Below are positions 384-28,460 of a DNA stretch of 30,484 bases, piece after piece; the first letter of the stretch is position 1, and every line of letters begins with the position of its first letter. The notes under the pieces were generated by a model. That model was not told where the DNA came from, searched no databases, and worked only from the letters and a program-made list of their open reading frames with translations. The translations under genes and the position numbers were made by a program. Location of the stretch: positions 1 through 30,484 of the IMG/VR virus record IMGVR_UViG_3300019881_000005, one strand, 5' to 3'. This stretch comes from a virus.

Positions 384-767
384 CTACCCGCACGCCAAGC
401 GGGGCGGCACTGGCGACGGGGTGCCGTTGACCTGGCCCTGATAGGCGTCACTGGCCCCGACGTAGGCGGCCAGGTGCCGACTGAACTCGTCTCGCGCGGT
501 GGGCGTGGGCGCGCTCAGCAGCATGGCCATGGTGCGCCAGAGGTCGTCATTGGCCCCGTCCAGTCCCCGACGCGCCTCCCTGAGCGCCTGAACGCGGGCG
601 TCGGTCTCGTCGGCCCAGCGCGCCACGCACGTGCCGAAGGCGGCCCGTTTGGCGGCCTGGTCGGCCACCACCCAGCCGGACGCACCGACGACGAGCACCA
701 CCATCACCAGGCTGGTCACCCAGGGATGCCCGGACAGCCAGCGCCACGCGCGCCGATGGGGGCTCAT
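384..767 (-). CDS. Membrane-anchored protein with periplasm-facing coiled region
   Basis: The 127-residue product has a basic N-terminus, one strong membrane segment at about residues 20-38, and then a charged helical domain rich in Ala, Arg and Asp, ending in a Pro-rich tail with a Cys next to last. The topology (short cytoplasmic N-terminus, one span, external helix) is like that of Rz-type spanins or other small phage envelope proteins, but no diagnostic motif is present. It is coupled to the 32-residue membrane gene upstream by an ATGA overlap. Function is not known; a lysis-related role is a guess, and the gene sits far from the holin-endolysin pair. Confidence 0.75.
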   Translation of the reverse strand: MSPHRRAWRWLSGHPWVTSLVMVVLVVGASGWVVADQAAKRAAFGTCVARWADETDARVQALREARRGLDGANDDLWRTMAMLLSAPTPTARDEFSRHLAAYVGASDAYQGQVNGTPSPVPPRLACG

Positions 768-862
768 CGCGCACCCCAGAGCGCGAGCACCACCAGCGCC
801 ACCAGCGCGGCGTAGATCCACAGCACGGCCCCTGGTCGCAGGGTCCTAGTCACCAGGCCCAT
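764..862 (-). CDS. Tiny single-span membrane protein (32 aa)
   Basis: The product is almost entirely one hydrophobic helix (about residues 13-30, W-I-Y-A-A-L then Val/Leu/Ala), with Arg on both flanks. Its stop overlaps the next gene's ATG by four bases (ATGA), which supports it being translated. The start is uncertain: ATG 862 overlaps the end of the preceding membrane gene, while GTG 853 would give 29 residues. No known family is recognised. Confidence 0.55.
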   Translation of the reverse strand: MGLVTRTLRPGAVLWIYAALVALVVLALWGAR

Positions 863-1097: not shown

Positions 1098-1445
1098 TCA
1101 CGACTGAGCCCCCTGATCCTGCTTGCGTCTGCCGATCAGCTCGTCCAGGTCCTCCCGATGGACGTAGGCCCGATTGGTGTGCGCCACCCGCAGGCCACGC
1201 AGGTGTCCCGCTCGCCGGAGCTTGTCGATCATCTTTACCCCGACGCCTAGCTCAGCGGCGGCCCGCTCGCGGCGCACCCAGTGCCGACCGACCAGACCGA
1301 GGCGCTCCCGCCACTGCCGGGCATCTCGCTCGGCAGGCACCTCGGCACCGTGGCTACCGACCACGATGGCCACGTGCCAATCGAGATCCTGGGGGCGTCG
1401 CAGGATCACCACCTCGGCCCGCTCGGGGTCCACTCGCACGTCCAT
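1098..1445 (-). CDS. Helix-turn-helix DNA-binding protein
   Basis: The 115-residue product has a C-terminal region (about 57-112) that reads as an excisionase/MerR-type winged helix-turn-helix: W-V-R-R-E-R-A-A-A-E-L-G-V, a second helix, then R-A-Y-V-H-R-E-D-L-D-E-L-I. The N-terminal half is not recognised. The ATG at 1445 sits exactly 7 bases after a TACCGT -10 element, so it is probably translated from a leaderless transcript. The repeat array at 1493-1679 lies immediately upstream of that promoter, making the protein a good candidate to bind the repeats, either as autoregulator or as origin-binding factor. With no integrase visible, a true excisionase role is unlikely. Confidence 0.8.
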   Translation of the reverse strand: MDVRVDPERAEVVILRRPQDLDWHVAIVVGSHGAEVPAERDARQWRERLGLVGRHWVRRERAAAELGVGVKMIDKLRRAGHLRGLRVAHTNRAYVHREDLDELIGRRKQDQGAQS

Positions 1446-1481
1446 GGGGCAGACGGTAGCAGTGATCTCAGAAACATGCCC
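1446..1481 (-). promoter_or_regulatory. Leaderless promoter for the helix-turn-helix gene
   Basis: On the minus strand CTGCTACCGT is followed by 7 bases and then ATG 1445. TACCGT (1453-1458) fits the actinobacterial -10 pattern TANNNT, and the spacing would put the first transcribed base at or next to the A of ATG. No convincing -35 is present and no ribosome site precedes the ATG. The same ten bases occur before the gene starting at 16684. Confidence 0.55.
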
Positions 1482-1492
1482 CAGAGCACTCT

Positions 1493-1679
1493 CAACCCCA
1501 CTCAACCCCACCTCAACCCCACCTAAAGGTGGTGGGGTTGATGGGGTTGGGGGTCCAACCCCAGGGGTACAACCCCATGGGGTTATCCACAATTCGCAGG
1601 TCACAGCCTTGGGGTTCATGATCCAACCCCATGGGGTTGAGACCTGGGGTTGGATCTTGGTAAACGGTGTTCAACCCCA
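1493..1679. repeat. Iteron-like array of CAACCCCA/TGGGGTTG, probable replication origin
   Basis: This non-coding stretch between the primase-helicase stop (1685) and the helix-turn-helix gene holds eleven exact 8-base units. Units reading CAACCCCA begin at 1493, 1503, 1514, 1556, 1570, 1624 and 1672. Units reading TGGGGTTG begin at 1533, 1542, 1632 and 1645. Two more differ in the last base (1578 and 1610). The first three are spaced 10 and 11 bases apart, about one helical turn. Units at 1624 and 1632 form a perfect 16-base palindrome. A DnaA box lies inside the array. Iterons plus a DnaA box next to a replication primase is the usual make-up of a theta-type origin; an operator array for the adjacent DNA-binding protein is the alternative, and both may hold. 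Confidence 0.8.
1583..1591 (+). promoter_or_regulatory. DnaA box
   Basis: TTATCCACA matches the strict bacterial DnaA-box consensus TTATNCACA. It is the only such site I see in the window and it lies in the middle of the repeat array, overlapping the end of one repeat unit. This suggests recruitment of host DnaA to the phage origin. Confidence 0.7.
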
Positions 1680-1684
1680 CCCCC

Positions 1685-3637
1685 TCAGAGATCATCTTCT
1701 GACCTCCCATCGGGGGTCACATCGACGCCCTGAACGCCTATGGACGCTCGGTAGAGACGACCCACGAGGCCGAGCATTCCGCCCCCCGGGCCGTTCTTGC
1801 TCAGGCCCTGACCGTGCATCTGGGTGAAGGCGTGGTTGACCGCCTCGTTCTTGGAACTGGCCATGCTGCCCCCGGTGCGCAGATAGGTTTCCAGCTCGGC
1901 CAGCAGCGCCTTGGCGCGCACCTCCCGGTCGTCGCTGAAGAACCCCTCACCACCTTGACCAGGTCCGGGCGGGCCGGTGACTACCAGGCCGTCGTGCCGA
2001 CGTTCCAAGCGCAGCGGTATCGGCTTGGACCGCTCGGCGAATCGCTGCTTACGCGTCACCAGCAGCAGGCCGCCACGTACCTCGGCCAATTCCAGCTCGG
2101 TATCGAGTCCGGCGTACATCGCCGAGGCCCCCCGGGCGCGCCCCTCGGCCGCCCACCCGTTGTGGTGCACCAGCAGCACGCACGCGTTGAGCGCGGCGGC
2201 CAGCTCGCGCAGGGCGGCCAGCACGAACGCGGCGTCATCGTTGTCACTTTCCTTGCGACCCACCGTCATGGCGGCCTGGGTGTCCAGCACGACCAGGACC
2301 GGCCCCAGGGCCTCGCAGGCGACCCCGAAGGCATCCCACTGGGGCCCGGCGACGGTCACCGCGTCCGGCCACACCCGCAGCCCGCTGGGACGCCCGTGTT
2401 CCGCGCGCCAGGTGCCGAGGCGGGGCCCCACCGATTGCGCACCCTCGGCATAGACGTACAGCGTTGGGGCCTGCTTAACCTCGCGGTTCTGCCATGGCAT
2501 GCCGCAGCGCACATGCGCCGCGACGTCCAGCCCGACCCACGTCTTTCCCACGGTGCTCGGTCCGAACATCCTGGCCACCGTCCCTCGGTACAGCAGCCCG
2601 GTCACGACAGGCTCAGGAGTCGGGATGGCGGCCAGCGCGTCCTCGTCGTAGAAGTCGAACGCGTCTCGACCGCGCACCAACGCCCCGACCCGGTCGGCGG
2701 GTGACTCAGGCACGAAAGGGGGCACCACCCCTTGACCGGCCCAGAACGCCTCTCCCGGGTCCATCTCCTCGTCCGGGACCACCACGTCGGCCCGATCGCC
2801 GTACTTGTCGACGGCACTCTCAAGCTTGCCCAGGTCGGCCTCGTCCGGTTCGGCCCCGCCCCGCCTAAAAGCCACCCGAAAGCCGACCTCGGCATGCTCG
2901 GGTGAGAGCAGGACCAGGTGCCTGGTCGCCTCTAGCAGCGCGGCGTGCGCCTCCCCGCCCCACCCGTTGGCCACCCAGCCGCGCACCTGCTCGGCCAGCC
3001 GATCGAGGGCTCGATCCCACTCGGCCGCGGCCGCCGACCGGGCCAGCCGGCGTGGGCCGACCTGGTTGTTCTCCCGAGTCTGGCGTAGGTCGAGCACCCG
3101 CTGCTTGACCTCGTGGCCCGTGCTGTCCGGCCCTCCGAGGTGCCCTAGCGCGTTGTCCCGCCACCGGTAGGGAGCCGGCAGGCCCTCGCTCGGCCCCGCC
3201 TTGGCCAATCGAACGGTCGGGGCGATGAAGGCGAACCCGCGGCCCCGGCCCTCCTCGGTGCCCGACTTGAGGTCCACGCCGGGCCAGATGCCGTCCCGGG
3301 ACTCGACCCGCAGCGGCGCCACGAACAGGTGCCGGCCGCCGCTGGGAGTGTCGGCCCAGAGGTAGGTGCTGGGCTGGGTCAGGGTGGGCATCTCACCCCC
3401 GGACCGGGGATCCAGGTCGATCAGGTCGAGCGCATGCCCGGTCACCGCGCAGAGCGCCATCCCGGGGGCCCAGGCGTCCACCACCGACTCGTCGGGCACC
3501 GAGCGTTCCCAGCCAGGGGGCAGCGCGTACCCGGTCGTCCTGGTGGCGTCGGGGTGACCCAGGAACACGGGCACCCCGGCCCGTACGAGCTGTCGAGCTA
3601 CCTGCAGGTCGGCCGCCTGCTGCGCGCTGATGGTCAT
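1685..3637 (-). CDS. Bifunctional primase-polymerase / RepA-like helicase
   Basis: The 650-residue protein has two catalytic halves. The N-terminal 200 residues form an archaeo-eukaryotic primase-polymerase: D-L-D at 74-76, S-G-G-R-H at 99-103 and V-D-L-K-S at 121-125 are the metal- and nucleotide-binding motifs. The C-terminal half is a RecA-fold ATPase of the AAA_25/RepA type, with Walker A GPSTVGKT at about 358-365, Walker B VLVVLDTQ at about 445-452 and V-H-H-N-G at about 486-490. It should make primers and unwind the fork for the family A polymerase in the same operon; no separate DnaG or DnaB homologue is seen. ATG 3637 overlaps the stop of the preceding small gene (ATGA), which fixes the start despite the lack of a ribosome site. 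The gene ends 5 bases from the repeat array. Confidence 0.9.
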   Translation of the reverse strand: MTISAQQAADLQVARQLVRAGVPVFLGHPDATRTTGYALPPGWERSVPDESVVDAWAPGMALCAVTGHALDLIDLDPRSGGEMPTLTQPSTYLWADTPSGGRHLFVAPLRVESRDGIWPGVDLKSGTEEGRGRGFAFIAPTVRLAKAGPSEGLPAPYRWRDNALGHLGGPDSTGHEVKQRVLDLRQTRENNQVGPRRLARSAAAAEWDRALDRLAEQVRGWVANGWGGEAHAALLEATRHLVLLSPEHAEVGFRVAFRRGGAEPDEADLGKLESAVDKYGDRADVVVPDEEMDPGEAFWAGQGVVPPFVPESPADRVGALVRGRDAFDFYDEDALAAIPTPEPVVTGLLYRGTVARMFGPSTVGKTWVGLDVAAHVRCGMPWQNREVKQAPTLYVYAEGAQSVGPRLGTWRAEHGRPSGLRVWPDAVTVAGPQWDAFGVACEALGPVLVVLDTQAAMTVGRKESDNDDAAFVLAALRELAAALNACVLLVHHNGWAAEGRARGASAMYAGLDTELELAEVRGGLLLVTRKQRFAERSKPIPLRLERRHDGLVVTGPPGPGQGGEGFFSDDREVRAKALLAELETYLRTGGSMASSKNEAVNHAFTQMHGQGLSKNGPGGGMLGLVGRLYRASIGVQGVDVTPDGRSEDDL

Positions 3638-5671: not shown

Positions 5672-7771
5672 CTACTCCTCCTCGTCTGTCGGCGGAAGCT
5701 CCGCCGGGTCGAACTCACCAGGCTGAGCGGCCCAGGTGCGGCCCACGATCTCGGCCTCGCACCTGATCACCACCCCCCGGTAGGTCACGGTCATGGCCGC
5801 CTCAAGGACCGACCGGAACTTCTCGCCCATCGGCGCCGGCACCTCACCGACCAGCTCGTCGTGCATGAAGAACCGCAGGGCCCAGGCCCAGCGCTGATGG
5901 TTGAGCCGATGCACCGAGAGCTTGAGCAGGTCGGCCTGGGTGCCCTGGGTGGCCGCGTTGAGGCCCAGTCGACTGTTCTTCACGTTGCCGTCCGGCCAGG
6001 TGCGCTGGCGCATCTCGCCGGCCTCGTCCACCCACACCCGGTCCCAGAGCGGCACCACGGCGCCGGAGTCCAGCGCCACCCAGCGCCGGGCGTTCTGCTC
6101 GTCGGCGTAGGCCCACAGCCGTGGCCAGCGTCCCCGCCAGCCACCCAGGATCCGGGCGCCCTCCTCCTCGGGACGACCCAGCAGGGTGGCCACCTTGCGC
6201 GGCGCGGCCCCGTAGAAGGCGGCCAGGATGGCGAACTTTGCCGCCTGACGCATGGTGTAGTGCGCCGTGTCGGCGGTCTTGCCCTGGGCCGGGTCGTAGG
6301 CGTCGCCGTAGACCAGGGCCGCGGTGACGCTGTTGATGTCGCCCTGTTCGAGGTCGGCCAGGTAGGTCTCGTCGCCGGACAGCGCCGCCATCACGAACGG
6401 TTCGGCCTGCCGGTAGTCGGCGGTGACCAGCACCCGACCCCGGCGGGCCCGGACGGCGGCGCGGAGCAGGGTGGTCGCGCGCTTGGGTGCCGAGTGCATC
6501 GGTCCTGAGGTCGGGGTCTTGCGGCAGGTCATCCGGGTGGTCACGGTGCCGATCGCGCGCATGCTCGGGTGCATCGCCCCGTCCGCGTGCTCGGTGGTCC
6601 ACACCATAGGGGCCACCCAGGTGCCCCGGTACTTGGTCGCCTTGCGCGCCTCGCCCACGTTGCTGGCCAGCCGGTAAGCGCGTTCGACCACGTCCCGCCA
6701 GGTGTTCTCCGTGGGATCGTTCAGCGCCCGCTCGGCCTGGTCGCTGATCTCGGCCAGCCGCTCCGCGTCGTAGGACTCGGTCCCCTCCCGGGTCAGGCGG
6801 CCGGGCACCCCCAGCGCACGGAAGGCGGCGGACACCCTCGGTCCCTGGCCGCTCGGGGGCACGTCGTCCGCGGTGAGCACCGTGCCGAGCTCGGCCTGCC
6901 GATCGGCGAGCCGGGCGTCCAGCCAGCGCGCGTACGGCGCGTCCACCTCCATGCCGGCCAGCGTCGCCTGGTCCACCACCCACTGTTCGGTCAGCGCCGC
7001 GCGGGCCCGGCCACCCTGCCCGCGTCGGGTGAGCTCACCTGAAAGCAGGTGCGTCAACCTAGTAGTACAAAGCGGGTCCAGCGCGGCGTAGAGCAGGTAG
7101 GCCGGGTCGTCGATCGGCACGTTGCCGAAACCCCAGGTGACCATTTTCTTGCTGGTCCGGTGCCCGACCGGGGCCAGTTCGTGGAACCGGGCGTACATCG
7201 CGACCTCGGCCGTTTCCAGCGTCGGCGTGAGCAACCTGGTCACGGTCGGCTTGAGGCCCTGGGGCAGTGGAATGCGCTGGTCGATTCGGTCTTTCTTGCT
7301 GTGTGTGGTGACCGTGCGCGGCTCGTACAGGGCCAGCAGCGGTTGCCCGTCCGCGATGTGCGGTTCCACCTCACCGAGGCGCACCGGATCCCGCATCGAC
7401 GGGTCCCGGGTCAGGAACCGCAGCTCGTTCTCGGCGAACCAAGCCACCCAGCGTGGGTGCTCGCGGATGAAGTGCGACACGACCGCGCCGCAGGAGTAGA
7501 GGCCGTCCGCCGACCAGATCGGCACCACCCAGGCCTCGTCCAGGTCGGCCACCTGGACCAGCCGCAGTCGGAACCCCGGCTGGTAGGGGTCGAGCGCGTT
7601 GGTCTCGCAGTCGATGCCGAGGAGCTGGTCATGGCGCTCTCCCAGCCAGTGACCGAGGTCGGCCAGGTCCTCGTTGGTTCGCGCCACCCGCAGCCGGCAC
7701 CCGGGTCGCGGCCAGCCCCCGACCTGGTAGGGCGTCCAGGCGGTTGGCGCGGCGTCCAGGGCGGTGCTCAC
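5672..7771 (-). CDS. DNA polymerase I-like, family A, with 3'-5' exonuclease domain
   Basis: This is the 699-residue replicative polymerase. The N-terminal third is a DnaQ-like proofreading domain: D54-x-E56 (Exo I) and Y-A-A-L-D at about 227-231 (Exo III, Y-x3-D); the Exo II position reads E-N-E-L-R and lacks a clear Asp. The polymerase domain has motif A T-A-D-Y-R-Q-A-E at about 448-455 (usual form D-Y-S-Q-I-E), motif B with K-F-A-I-L-A-A-F-Y-G at about 510 and motif C H-D-E at about 635. The two metal-binding Asp residues are present. It extends primers laid down by the primase-polymerase encoded downstream. GTG 7771 overlaps the stop of the methyltransferase remnant (GTGA), giving translational coupling. 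Confidence 0.95.
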   Translation of the reverse strand: MSTALDAAPTAWTPYQVGGWPRPGCRLRVARTNEDLADLGHWLGERHDQLLGIDCETNALDPYQPGFRLRLVQVADLDEAWVVPIWSADGLYSCGAVVSHFIREHPRWVAWFAENELRFLTRDPSMRDPVRLGEVEPHIADGQPLLALYEPRTVTTHSKKDRIDQRIPLPQGLKPTVTRLLTPTLETAEVAMYARFHELAPVGHRTSKKMVTWGFGNVPIDDPAYLLYAALDPLCTTRLTHLLSGELTRRGQGGRARAALTEQWVVDQATLAGMEVDAPYARWLDARLADRQAELGTVLTADDVPPSGQGPRVSAAFRALGVPGRLTREGTESYDAERLAEISDQAERALNDPTENTWRDVVERAYRLASNVGEARKATKYRGTWVAPMVWTTEHADGAMHPSMRAIGTVTTRMTCRKTPTSGPMHSAPKRATTLLRAAVRARRGRVLVTADYRQAEPFVMAALSGDETYLADLEQGDINSVTAALVYGDAYDPAQGKTADTAHYTMRQAAKFAILAAFYGAAPRKVATLLGRPEEEGARILGGWRGRWPRLWAYADEQNARRWVALDSGAVVPLWDRVWVDEAGEMRQRTWPDGNVKNSRLGLNAATQGTQADLLKLSVHRLNHQRWAWALRFFMHDELVGEVPAPMGEKFRSVLEAAMTVTYRGVVIRCEAEIVGRTWAAQPGEFDPAELPPTDEEE

Positions 7772-25160: not shown

Positions 25161-26495
25161 TTACGCGACCGGGTTGTTGCGAACGCCCACCAGGCCGACC
25201 GGACGCAGGATGCGCACGGCGAAGTAGCCGAACAGGGCCAGCTCGACGAACGCCGGGCCGGACCGCTCCTCGAACCGGAACGTGAGCACCGGGGATTCCC
25301 AGCACCACACGTCATTGCGATTGCCCATGATCGCGTCCGCGTCGCCGGCCGCGTTGCCGGACATGGACCAGGCCTTCTGAAGGATCACGCCATCGACGTC
25401 GTAGCCGCGCTGGGCCATCGTGCCGAGGGGGTTCATGCTGTTGACCCAGGGCACCAGGGGCCGCCCGGTGGTGTCAACGGCGGCGGCGAACTCAGATACG
25501 CCCGGCTGGGACAGGAAACCGAAATCGATCTCGGCGAACCGCCGGAAGTCGTAGATACCGACCGCGCTGCGGATGCCCTGCAGAAACACTCGGCCGGTGG
25601 TGCCGTCCGAGATGTCGCCGGCAGTCAGATCGGTGGCCTGGGCACCCGAGGGAACAAACCCCGAGGTGATGGTGCCGCCAACACCGTTGGTGCCGTTCAG
25701 CTCGGTATAGACCATGGTCTCGGTCTGCTGGCTGAACGACTCGCTCATGGCCTGCGTAGCGATGGCGTCGATGGCCGGGTTCGCCGAGTCGGCCATTTCT
25801 CGGGTGATCTTGTACAGGCCGCTGATCCCGCCGGGGGTGATCGTGACCGGCTCGACGGCGAGACTGGCCTCGCTCGGGTTGACGCCCTCGACGTGGGTCG
25901 CCGTGGCGCCCGTACTGGACACGAACCGCGGCACCGTGAACGGAGTGGCATCCGCGATGGTGCCTCGACTGATCGCGTTAGTGAGCGGCCGCCCCTTCAG
26001 GAGCTGGGACACGTACAAGTCAGGCCGGTAACCAGGCGGAACGACTGCCGAGGCGTTGCCCGTGTTGATCGCGAACGTGGGATCCGCCATGGACTCCTCA
26101 AGCAGCTCGGTCGTCTGGGCCTCGAACTTGCGCAGCCGGGCCCGCGCGGCGCCATCGCCGTCCGATCCGGTCTGCACCCGCCGGGCGTCCCGCACGAAGC
26201 TGGGGCCCTGACCGTTCATCGCGTAGACGAGCGGCTCCTTGACCGACTGGATGCCCCGACCTGCGGCCACCACCTGGCGCTGTGGGGCCGGCAGGGCCGC
26301 GATCAGGTCGGTCAGCATGGCCTTGTTCGCCTCGGTCAGTGCCGAAGTCAAGCCACTGGTGAACTGCGTGGCGAAAGCCGCCGCATCGAACGCGACGGGC
26401 GCGGCCGGCTGGTCGGTGGCCGCGACGGCTGGCGGGGTAGCGGTTGGGCACGCCAATGCTGGCGCGTGCTCCTGGCCGCACTTGGCGCACCTCAT
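25161..26495 (-). CDS. Major capsid protein from internal start (444 aa)
   Basis: This is the last part of the 1099-codon frame, listed separately because ATG 26495 has the strongest ribosome site in the region (AGAGGAGA, 8 bases upstream). The product opens M-R-C-A-K-C-G-Q-E-H with a further Cys at 16, then a Pro/Ala segment and helices of the delta (scaffold) region, and from about residue 155 the HK97 capsid fold. A protease normally removes the delta region, here probably near the helical end at about 110-150. Capsid protein needs hundreds of copies, so independent initiation here is expected. Confidence 0.75.
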   Translation of the reverse strand: MRCAKCGQEHAPALACPTATPPAVAATDQPAAPVAFDAAAFATQFTSGLTSALTEANKAMLTDLIAALPAPQRQVVAAGRGIQSVKEPLVYAMNGQGPSFVRDARRVQTGSDGDGAARARLRKFEAQTTELLEESMADPTFAINTGNASAVVPPGYRPDLYVSQLLKGRPLTNAISRGTIADATPFTVPRFVSSTGATATHVEGVNPSEASLAVEPVTITPGGISGLYKITREMADSANPAIDAIATQAMSESFSQQTETMVYTELNGTNGVGGTITSGFVPSGAQATDLTAGDISDGTTGRVFLQGIRSAVGIYDFRRFAEIDFGFLSQPGVSEFAAAVDTTGRPLVPWVNSMNPLGTMAQRGYDVDGVILQKAWSMSGNAAGDADAIMGNRNDVWCWESPVLTFRFEERSGPAFVELALFGYFAVRILRPVGLVGVRNNPVA

Positions 26496-28460
26496 GAGTT
26501 GATCTCCTCTGGTTGCCGCGACGTGCTGGACTCGCGCGTCGTCGAAAGCGGGCATGGCAGTTAGCGCGACCTTGCGCAGGGTGGCCGACTGCACGTAGCG
26601 GACCGTGTCATCGTCCGGGTGTGGGATGTACCCGTCGCCCTCGCCCTCAAAGTTGACGTAGATCGACAGCCCGTCGTAGACCCCGTCCTCGGCCAGCGCA
26701 AGGGCATCGTCCCCGCTGGCACCCCGAGCCACCTTGAACGAACTGAACAGCCCGGTCTCGGTGCTGGTCAGGGCACTGGCCTTGCCGAACTCGGTGCCGT
26801 AGCCGTGGTCCTTGTCAAGCTTCACGCGGCCGGGGTCGGACCAGTGCAGGCTCCCAGGCGCGAACGCCCACTTGAATCCCCCAGACTTGGCTACCGCGTT
26901 CCACGGGACGGCCACCCCCGAGATCGTGCGCTTAACGGAATCGGCCTTGAACTGAGCGATGCCGGGATCCATCTCGAACACGAAACCGATCTCAGCCTCG
27001 GAATCGCTGAACCGCGCCCCGATGGGCGTGAGCGTGTTGGTCACGGTGCCTCCGACTGGTGCGGGGGTCGATGGTGGGCCGATTGGGGCAGCCGCGGCCC
27101 TCTCGGGTGCGGGACCGGTCAGCCGCGCCCCGGCCCGGTTCAGGATGGCCCGGCACTCCTCGGGCGTCATGATCACACCCGAGGCCAGGTAGATCTTCTG
27201 GGCGAGCTCGGCCACCGCGCGGGCCGCATCCGCATCGCTCAGGGCCCCGCCAGCAAGCGCACGATCTGCAGGCTTGCCGGCCGTGAGGGCGGCCCGCACG
27301 CGGGCCACCGGGATGCGCTCAGCGCGAGAGATCCGTTCGTCGTCGTAGGCCCCGACCTTGCGGCCCTTGTCGTAAACGTCCATCCGAGACGGGGTATCGG
27401 AGCGCAGGAAGCCATCGAACTCGAAGTAGACCCGCCGGCCGGGCACCGTGACGTCGTTCATCGACAGCCGATCCTCGATCGCGGTCACGTAGGCCTTGAG
27501 CGTGAAGTCGAGCAGGTCCAGCCGTCGCTGTTCGGCGTTGGCGTAAGTCCGGCTGGTGGTCGATACCCCCAGCTCCTCGGGATCCACCCCGCCGATGCGG
27601 GCGATTTCCAGCACCGCGTAGTCGCGCTGGCTCATGAATTGAAGTTGCTCGGGCGAGAAGGTGAGCTGATGGACGTCCAGGGCCCCGCCGACCCAGCCCC
27701 AGGACCGGCGCCGCCGGGAATCCTCCATGTCGTCGAGGGCCTCATCGACGTCGAAGTCAGGATCTAGCTCAACGTCGGCCTTCGGAGTCACGTAGCCAAC
27801 CTGCTGCGGGTCGTCGGCCAACCGGTCGGCGGCCGCGTTGAGGGCCAGCGCGGTGCGAATCGCGCGGGCCCCGGCGACCAGCAGTGGGTCATTCGGGGAG
27901 TCGATCCGAATCAGCAGGTCATCCGGCTGGTAGCCGATGCTGATGCCCTCGGCCTGACCGGTATCGGACACCCACACCCGGCCGCTCTTCATCACGCTAA
28001 CCGAGTCGGCTTCCAACCGTACGATCCGATCGGGGAAGCCGTCCGCGCCAAACCCCACAACGCGCCACCAGGCCCGGCCCTCGAACAGCATGTCCTCGAC
28101 GGTTCGGGTCATGGTGACCGATCGGGCGATATCGTCCTCAGGCTGTTCGAGCAAGGCGCTGTAGACCTCGCTGTAGCCCGGTTTGGTGAGCTGACACAGG
28201 TCCAGCGTGCCGAGCGTGCCCGCGGTCAGATCCCGCACCCGCTTGACGGCCGGCACCTGGATGGCCTGCTCCCGGCTCACCCGGGGCGCGATGGCGTTAG
28301 GCGAGATCAGGTCGCCGGTCATCTCAGGCGGCAGGGTGATCGAAAACTGGGCGGAGGTCGGACGGCCCCGGTACCGTCCCGTGCGCGTCGGGGGACGCCG
28401 GGGCGGGGCCGGGGCAGGGGGCGGCGCGATCATGCTCAACACCCGCGTCCATGCCGTCAC
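25161..28460 (-). CDS. Portal-protease-major capsid fused frame (1099 aa)
   Basis: One uninterrupted frame holds three head proteins. Residues 1 to about 450 are an HK97-type portal (N-A-I-A-P-R-V-S-R-E-Q-A-I-Q-V-P-A-V, G-V-D-P-E-E-L-G). Residues about 490-650 are a prohead serine protease with H552 in D-K-D-H-G and S599 in D-G-L-S-I. From M656 comes a zinc-like C-A-K-C-G...C segment, a helical delta-like region and an HK97-fold capsid (P-P-G-Y-R-P-D, E-F-A-A-A-V-D, F-R-F-E-E-R). Two internal starts have ribosome sites: GTG 27044 (codon 473, GGAGG 4 bases upstream) and ATG 26495 (codon 656, AGAGGAGA 8 bases upstream). The latter would yield a 444-residue capsid protein, needed in far more copies than the 12 portals. 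Confidence 0.9.
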   Translation of the reverse strand: MTAWTRVLSMIAPPPAPAPPRRPPTRTGRYRGRPTSAQFSITLPPEMTGDLISPNAIAPRVSREQAIQVPAVKRVRDLTAGTLGTLDLCQLTKPGYSEVYSALLEQPEDDIARSVTMTRTVEDMLFEGRAWWRVVGFGADGFPDRIVRLEADSVSVMKSGRVWVSDTGQAEGISIGYQPDDLLIRIDSPNDPLLVAGARAIRTALALNAAADRLADDPQQVGYVTPKADVELDPDFDVDEALDDMEDSRRRRSWGWVGGALDVHQLTFSPEQLQFMSQRDYAVLEIARIGGVDPEELGVSTTSRTYANAEQRRLDLLDFTLKAYVTAIEDRLSMNDVTVPGRRVYFEFDGFLRSDTPSRMDVYDKGRKVGAYDDERISRAERIPVARVRAALTAGKPADRALAGGALSDADAARAVAELAQKIYLASGVIMTPEECRAILNRAGARLTGPAPERAAAAPIGPPSTPAPVGGTVTNTLTPIGARFSDSEAEIGFVFEMDPGIAQFKADSVKRTISGVAVPWNAVAKSGGFKWAFAPGSLHWSDPGRVKLDKDHGYGTEFGKASALTSTETGLFSSFKVARGASGDDALALAEDGVYDGLSIYVNFEGEGDGYIPHPDDDTVRYVQSATLRKVALTAMPAFDDARVQHVAATRGDQLMRCAKCGQEHAPALACPTATPPAVAATDQPAAPVAFDAAAFATQFTSGLTSALTEANKAMLTDLIAALPAPQRQVVAAGRGIQSVKEPLVYAMNGQGPSFVRDARRVQTGSDGDGAARARLRKFEAQTTELLEESMADPTFAINTGNASAVVPPGYRPDLYVSQLLKGRPLTNAISRGTIADATPFTVPRFVSSTGATATHVEGVNPSEASLAVEPVTITPGGISGLYKITREMADSANPAIDAIATQAMSESFSQQTETMVYTELNGTNGVGGTITSGFVPSGAQATDLTAGDISDGTTGRVFLQGIRSAVGIYDFRRFAEIDFGFLSQPGVSEFAAAVDTTGRPLVPWVNSMNPLGTMAQRGYDVDGVILQKAWSMSGNAAGDADAIMGNRNDVWCWESPVLTFRFEERSGPAFVELALFGYFAVRILRPVGLVGVRNNPVA
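26496..27044 (-). CDS. Prohead protease segment with possible internal GTG start
   Basis: Codons 473-655 of the fused frame encode a HK97-type (S78/U35 class) assembly protease: T-I-S-G-V-A-V-P-W-N, then H552 (D-K-D-H-G), S599 (D-G-L-S-I-Y-V) and L-R-K-V-A-L-T-A-M-P-A-F. GTG 27044 has GGAGG 4 bases upstream, so a protease-capsid product without portal could be made. There is no stop codon before the capsid segment; the coordinates end where the capsid ATG starts. Autocleavage may separate the parts. Confidence 0.65.

Follow-up and report, generated by a model that had tools for sequence, protein, structure and literature searches.

A repeat array directly 3′ of a RepA-type helicase-primase gene as a probable iteron-type replication origin in a tailed phage

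The helicase-primase locus and its repeats

The window analysed here is IMG/VR record IMGVR_UViG_3300019881_000005, taken whole (30,484 bases). It contains a dense array of short repeats that is bordered on one side by the stop codon of a helicase-primase gene (1685) and on the other by the start of a gene for a small helix-turn-helix (HTH) protein (1445), the placement that the initial annotation had given when it proposed a phage replication origin at this site. The features of the locus are the following.

1098 to 1445, minus strand: gene next after the array, for a small HTH_17/excisionase-like protein (Pfam HTH_17 at 1.4e-4, below the cut-off; PHROG 66 at 5e-6)
1453 to 1458, minus strand: possible -10 element TACCGT, read from the sequence, 7 nt upstream of the HTH start codon ATG
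1493 to 1679, no strand: candidate iteron array of mixed orientation, with 11 exact CAACCCCA/TGGGGTTG units and two near-copies (AACCCCA)
1503 to 1549, no strand: core dyad, in which units at 1503 and 1514 (+) face units at 1533 and 1542 (-) around a hairpin
1519 to 1532, coding (minus) strand: core hairpin CCACC-TTTA-GGTGG, on the plus strand CCACC-TAAA-GGTGG, without a T-run
1571 to 1584: palindrome, a 14-bp version of CAACCCCATGGGGTTG
1583 to 1591, plus strand: perfect DnaA box TTATCCACA, at +93 from the helicase-primase stop codon
1624 to 1639, no strand: perfect 16-bp palindrome CAACCCCATGGGGTTG, two units head to head
1685 to 3634, minus strand: helicase-primase gene (649 aa; RepA-type helicase domain at aa 330-496), its 3′ end 6 bp from the array
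1688 to 1942, minus strand: proposed iteron-binding C-terminal region of the helicase-primase (about aa 565-649), three helices predicted with low confidence

The product of 1685-3634 matches Pfam AAA_25 (1.7e-27) and, through its helicase part, PHROG 906, DNA polymerase/primase (1.3e-33). RepA of RSF1010 (1g8y, 2.4e-5) is the only solved structure that it matched by sequence. Judged by eye, the N-terminus looks like an AEP-like primase-polymerase; the Prim-Pol domain PF09250 gave no Pfam match in this protein and a match of 4.9e-9 in that of a relative, L133. The full-length model is poor (pLDDT 54.6). For the HTH protein we found neither a solved structure nor a phage match, and the spacing of the TACCGT element to its gene is as expected for a leaderless actinobacterial promoter, which it may be. 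Further genes of the window encode a family-A DNA polymerase (5672-7771), a ResIII/DEAD-type helicase and RusA. At 25161-28460 (minus strand), a single 1099-aa open reading frame has, in succession, matches to a portal protein, to a capsid maturation protease and to a major capsid protein, and looks like a portal-protease-capsid fusion. A small protein at 384-770 (minus strand) matches Ntox28 at 8.4e-4, below the Pfam cut-off and probably not meaningful.

The 11 exact units and two near-copies counted in 187 bases by the initial annotation were borne out by a recount. Exact units start at 1493, 1503, 1514, 1533(-), 1542(-), 1556, 1570, 1624, 1632(-), 1645(-) and 1672, and the near-copies at 1578(-) and 1610(-) bring AACCCCA to 13 occurrences in 187 bp. 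A single further exact unit lies elsewhere in the window (29279). The expectation for CAACCCCA over the whole window is 1.07, and 60 order-2 simulated genomes reached at most 3-4 copies of any 8-mer per 200 bp; the density of the array is far beyond chance. The 16-base palindrome and the DnaA box were likewise found as described. Of the helical spacing, only part stood: start-to-start distances are about 8-14 within clusters, and gaps of 19-32 split the clusters from each other.

The core hairpin and its flanking inverted unit pairs go beyond what had been noted before. The folding z-score of the array is -5.2, a value to which inverted repeats of any kind would contribute, and an Rfam search returned no match. 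Its GC content is 58% versus 69% window-wide, among the lowest 1% of windows. A check for an AT-rich unwinding element gave only 52.5% AT in the best 40 bp, which is not strongly AT-rich. The GC skew, proposed as a check on the origin, has its detrended minimum at 6169; it follows gene strand and is therefore uninformative on where the origin lies.

Arrays and core hairpins behind related helicase genes

Protein scans found no close relatives of the primase in viral contigs or bacterial genomes and none of the window's DNA polymerase in viral contigs. In a DNA scan for three direct copies of CAACCCCA, the matches listed were mostly tandem or coding-type repeats. A mixed-orientation pattern scan matched three contigs. 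L133 carries a Prim-Pol/RepA-type helicase gene whose stop codon is followed immediately by the first of 17 AACCCCA units. L130 has TGGGGTTGGATTCTGCAACCCCA units at 34-131, within a replication-initiator gene that directly precedes dnaB, an arrangement reminiscent of lambda O/ori. The third, IMGVR_UViG_3300036713_000669 (L131/L132), is an AT-rich phage with TGGGGTTG/CAACCCCA clusters in two separate places, beside which no RepA-type helicase gene was seen. The word common to the window and L133 is no evidence, because the scan sought that word; the apparent place of units next to replication genes in the scan matches does count as evidence.

The survey that follows covered annotated phages picked by helicase or polymerase homology alone, plus IMG/VR loci; the two large scans found 500+ loci each, of which 80 per scan were listed. 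Repeats start within about 1-20 bp of the helicase stop codon in Roseobacter phages CRP-821 (GTATAAA) and CRP-811 (CTACAAA), Alteromonas phage XX1924 (TGAACCA), Salicola phage CGphi29 (GGGGACA), Idiomarinaceae phage 1N2-2 (GGTACA) and EBPR siphovirus 5 (GGAAGTA). CAACCAA repeats surround the stop codon in Edwardsiella phage eiAU. Among the 52 non-redundant loci of the first set (below 80% identity), 20 carry a phage-specific 6-8 bp repeat array no more than 270 bp 3′ of the gene, two of these positives (the window and L133) having been ascertained by their repeats; none of 178 control windows does. A second set, seeded from relatives of XX1924 and CRP-821 and judged by criteria fixed beforehand, was array-positive at 11 of 17 loci versus 1 of 347 controls. 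Phages that are not related to each other thus have the layout in common, each with a word of its own.

The array does not accompany every such gene. Actinophages Sour, Mariokart, Acadian, Baka and NBR1 have the helicase and no array, and all of these except Baka are the nearest annotated actinophage relatives of the window phage. The large Caulobacter RW-like group (L161 to L226) has the RepA-type helicase without an array 3′ of the gene; a similar RDTRRQ motif occurs in the C-terminal domain of this group. L151 has, besides the array, a second cluster of seven CGGTGAC/CACCGTA copies (6017-6174), about 510-667 bp past the helicase gene.

The relatives' arrays have the same core-dyad layout as positions 1503-1549 of the window. 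Common to them is a hairpin whose loop is TTTA (or TATA) and whose stem is mostly C/G-rich, with inverted repeat units on either side. In the first set, a hairpin with a stem of 5 or more and a TTTA, TATA or TAAA loop was present in 9/22 array-positive 3′ regions, 0/30 array-negative ones and 0/668 control windows; the second set gave 9/17 loci against 2/347 controls. The loop on the coding strand reads TTTA 17 times and TAAA once (related sequences counted too), and the element is therefore polar. Since an ungapped search for the 26-bp dyad recovered the core in only 3 of 29 loci, we claim the core through the hairpin test only.

The DnaA box had been taken as a mark of the origin. It is the sole exact copy of TTATCCACA in the window, and three related arrays (L162, L164 and L170) carry the same box at +88, nearly the same offset. 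It is missing from about 20 other arrays examined. The box is thus real but not a defining feature, standing outside the arrays' common design, and host DnaA may help in some of these phages.

Which protein domain reads the repeats

Four Roseobacter phages bear on this question. CRP-821 and CRP-831 share the repeat GTATAAA, with C-termini that are 98-100% identical and N-termini only 74-88%; CRP-811 and CRP-823 share CTACAAA, with C-termini 96-100% identical. Between CRP-821 and CRP-823, the N-termini are 92-100% identical and the helicase is shared, while the C-terminus and the repeat both differ. At the DNA level these two are 91-97% identical upstream, 65-81% in the C-terminal domain, 54% in the array and 86-99% just downstream. 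The pattern points to exchange of the C-terminal domain and array as one block of about 570 bp, in which at least 10 units changed together and the array geometry was kept. Sister phages thus appear to exchange the repeat word jointly with its probable reader, the C-terminal part of the protein.

Individual residues follow the repeats in other relatives. Loci with GGTGCA have QHxKRA in helix 3, and six loci with GTTGCA, L176 among them, have Q[R/K]xRRA. The helicase of L176 is 88-95% identical to those of the GGTGCA loci, yet this locus has R..R in helix 3 and GTTGCA repeats. Three further GTTGCA loci (L151, L152 and L179) have other helix-3 residues. Repeat similarity correlated with C-terminal identity at 0.44 given helicase identity, and the reverse gave 0.13, both without phylogenetic correction. 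Together, the co-exchange in the Roseobacter phages and the helix-3 residues lend support, in these relatives, to the proposal that the C-terminal domain sets iteron specificity. Some co-inheritance of domain and array is expected from linkage because the two are adjacent, and the swap evidence comes from distant relatives, no close relative of the window phage having been found.

For L133, AlphaFold2 gave the C-terminus a winged-helix topology (H-b-H-H-b-b; block pLDDT about 76-88 in the domain). A PDB fold search with the C-terminal model returned no match at E <= 0.001; the weak ones that it did give include several winged-helix or DNA-binding domains. The C-termini of the window and L133 proteins are 17% identical. 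Because the model of the window C-terminus is weak, the HTH protein of 1098-1445 is a possible binder too. The likeliest reader of the repeats is nevertheless the C-terminal domain of the helicase-primase, because the arrays of relatives lie behind the helicase gene irrespective of which gene is the next one and because the repeat sequence tracks this domain.

The same comparison bears on the operator reading, in which the array would be an operator or enhancer of the downstream gene, autoregulated by the HTH protein, and not an origin. The array does lie just upstream of that gene with its possible leaderless promoter, and the protein is excisionase-like. In L133 and the Roseobacter and Idiomarinaceae phages, however, the arrays follow a helicase gene, and the gene after them has no HTH annotation and was not recognised as HTH. 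Where Gordonia phages have an HTH or DNA-binding gene at that place, the array is missing, and these proteins are not detectably related to the one at 1098-1445. Thirteen units in mixed orientation over 187 bp would also be unusual for an operator. We reject this reading as improbable; the earlier preference for an iteron-type origin over promoter operators has gained support from the comparative survey, the core hairpin and the block exchange.

The repeats could instead be single-stranded start sites for the primase domain, which would still make the array an origin. NrS-1 PrimPol initiates at TTTGGTTA (PMC8718748), and GGTT occurs inside several of the repeats. Against this, the Roseobacter repeat goes with the C-terminal domain and not the N-terminal half, and an array is likewise found with a type that is annotated as TOPRIM primase, which makes start sites a decidedly unlikely account.

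In plasmids, iteron arrays can also govern copy number or partition, and the array might serve partition or incompatibility, or have some other regulatory role beside a replication gene, without being the start site. This we regard as very unlikely: no partition ATPase was seen among the window genes examined, and the array goes with one replication gene family across many phages. A terminator region of the leftward early operon would fit a position 3′ of a gene and hairpins within, but a T-rich tract follows only 4 of 23 core hairpins, the window's not among them, and 13 copies of a phage-specific word would be left unexplained; this reading is rejected as scarcely credible.

A proposed origin class and its meaning

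The recurrent arrays, the core hairpin, the block exchange and the winged helix of L133 together lead us to conclude that the array is probably the phage's iteron-type replication origin, placed immediately 3′ of its initiator's gene and probably read by that initiator's C-terminus. Computation shows the array, similar arrays behind other genes of this family, the common hairpin core and the co-exchange in relatives; from these we infer binding, melting, priming and replication in the window phage. The C-terminal DNA-binding domain of the helicase-primase would bind the 8-bp units, and several molecules would assemble, the inverted unit pairs setting opposite orientations around the TTTA hairpin. 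The RepA-type helicase ring would then load and unwind; synthesis of the first strand would be started by the fused primase domain, perhaps at the polar TTTA hairpin, and continued by the phage family-A polymerase (5672-7771).

The principle is already known from SaPI Rep, P4 alpha and pRN1. In SaPI Rep, the C-terminus recognises iterons directly downstream of its own gene (Ubeda 2007, as cited in PMC7581432). SaPI Rep/ori and SCCmec Cch2 share with our proposal the iterons directly downstream of an initiator-helicase gene and C-terminal recognition; their helicases are D5/SF3-like AAA+, whereas that of the window is of the AAA_25/RepA type, fused to a primase, in tailed phages. The passages of PMC7581432 consulted make no mention of a TTTA core hairpin like that of the phage arrays for SaPI or SCCmec. 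In plasmid pRN1, the single protein ORF904 likewise unites a primase-polymerase, a helicase and a C-terminal winged helix, and an essential region with a required stem-loop lies just 3′ of the gene for this primase-helicase; the plasmid differs in having an SF3 helicase and a 100-nt stem-loop without iterons in place of iterons and short hairpins (PMC4234260). The P4 alpha protein, described in the same source, is a primase-helicase too and binds the repeats of the P4 origin through its winged helix; unlike the window protein, it has a TOPRIM-type primase and another helicase family. RSF1010 resembles the window in its RepA-type helicase and iterons and adds ssi stem-loops for its primase; RepA, RepB′ and RepC are separate there, RepC being a dedicated iteron binder, whereas the window has one fused protein. 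NrS-1 PrimPol is also a phage primase-polymerase with a helicase domain and an 8-nt recognition site, which its primase reads as template (PMC8718748), whereas for the window we propose binding by the C-terminal domain.

In the paper on the CRP phages (PMC12629253), the words repeat, iteron and primase are absent. Literature searches, mostly of openly accessible sources, turned up no account of such a layout for phages with RepA-type helicases. The TTTA core, the swap of the cassette and the application of the principle to RepA helicases of tailed phages look new. More tentatively than for the window itself, we favour a widespread, undescribed class of tailed-phage origins in which the C-terminal winged helix of a RepA-type helicase-primase and the adjacent array would act as one specificity cassette, open to exchange and built around a polar, conserved CC-TTTA-GG hairpin, the putative melting or priming point, and in which a cassette swap would change origin specificity.

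For most tailed phages, we know of no identified origin. If the proposal is right, many phage origins could be located in sequence data, immediately 3′ of the RepA-type helicase gene, and C-terminal domains paired with their repeats would amount to a natural experiment on initiator-origin recognition. The cassette swap between sister phages would suggest selection for changed origin specificity, for example in escaping satellites or co-infecting relatives.
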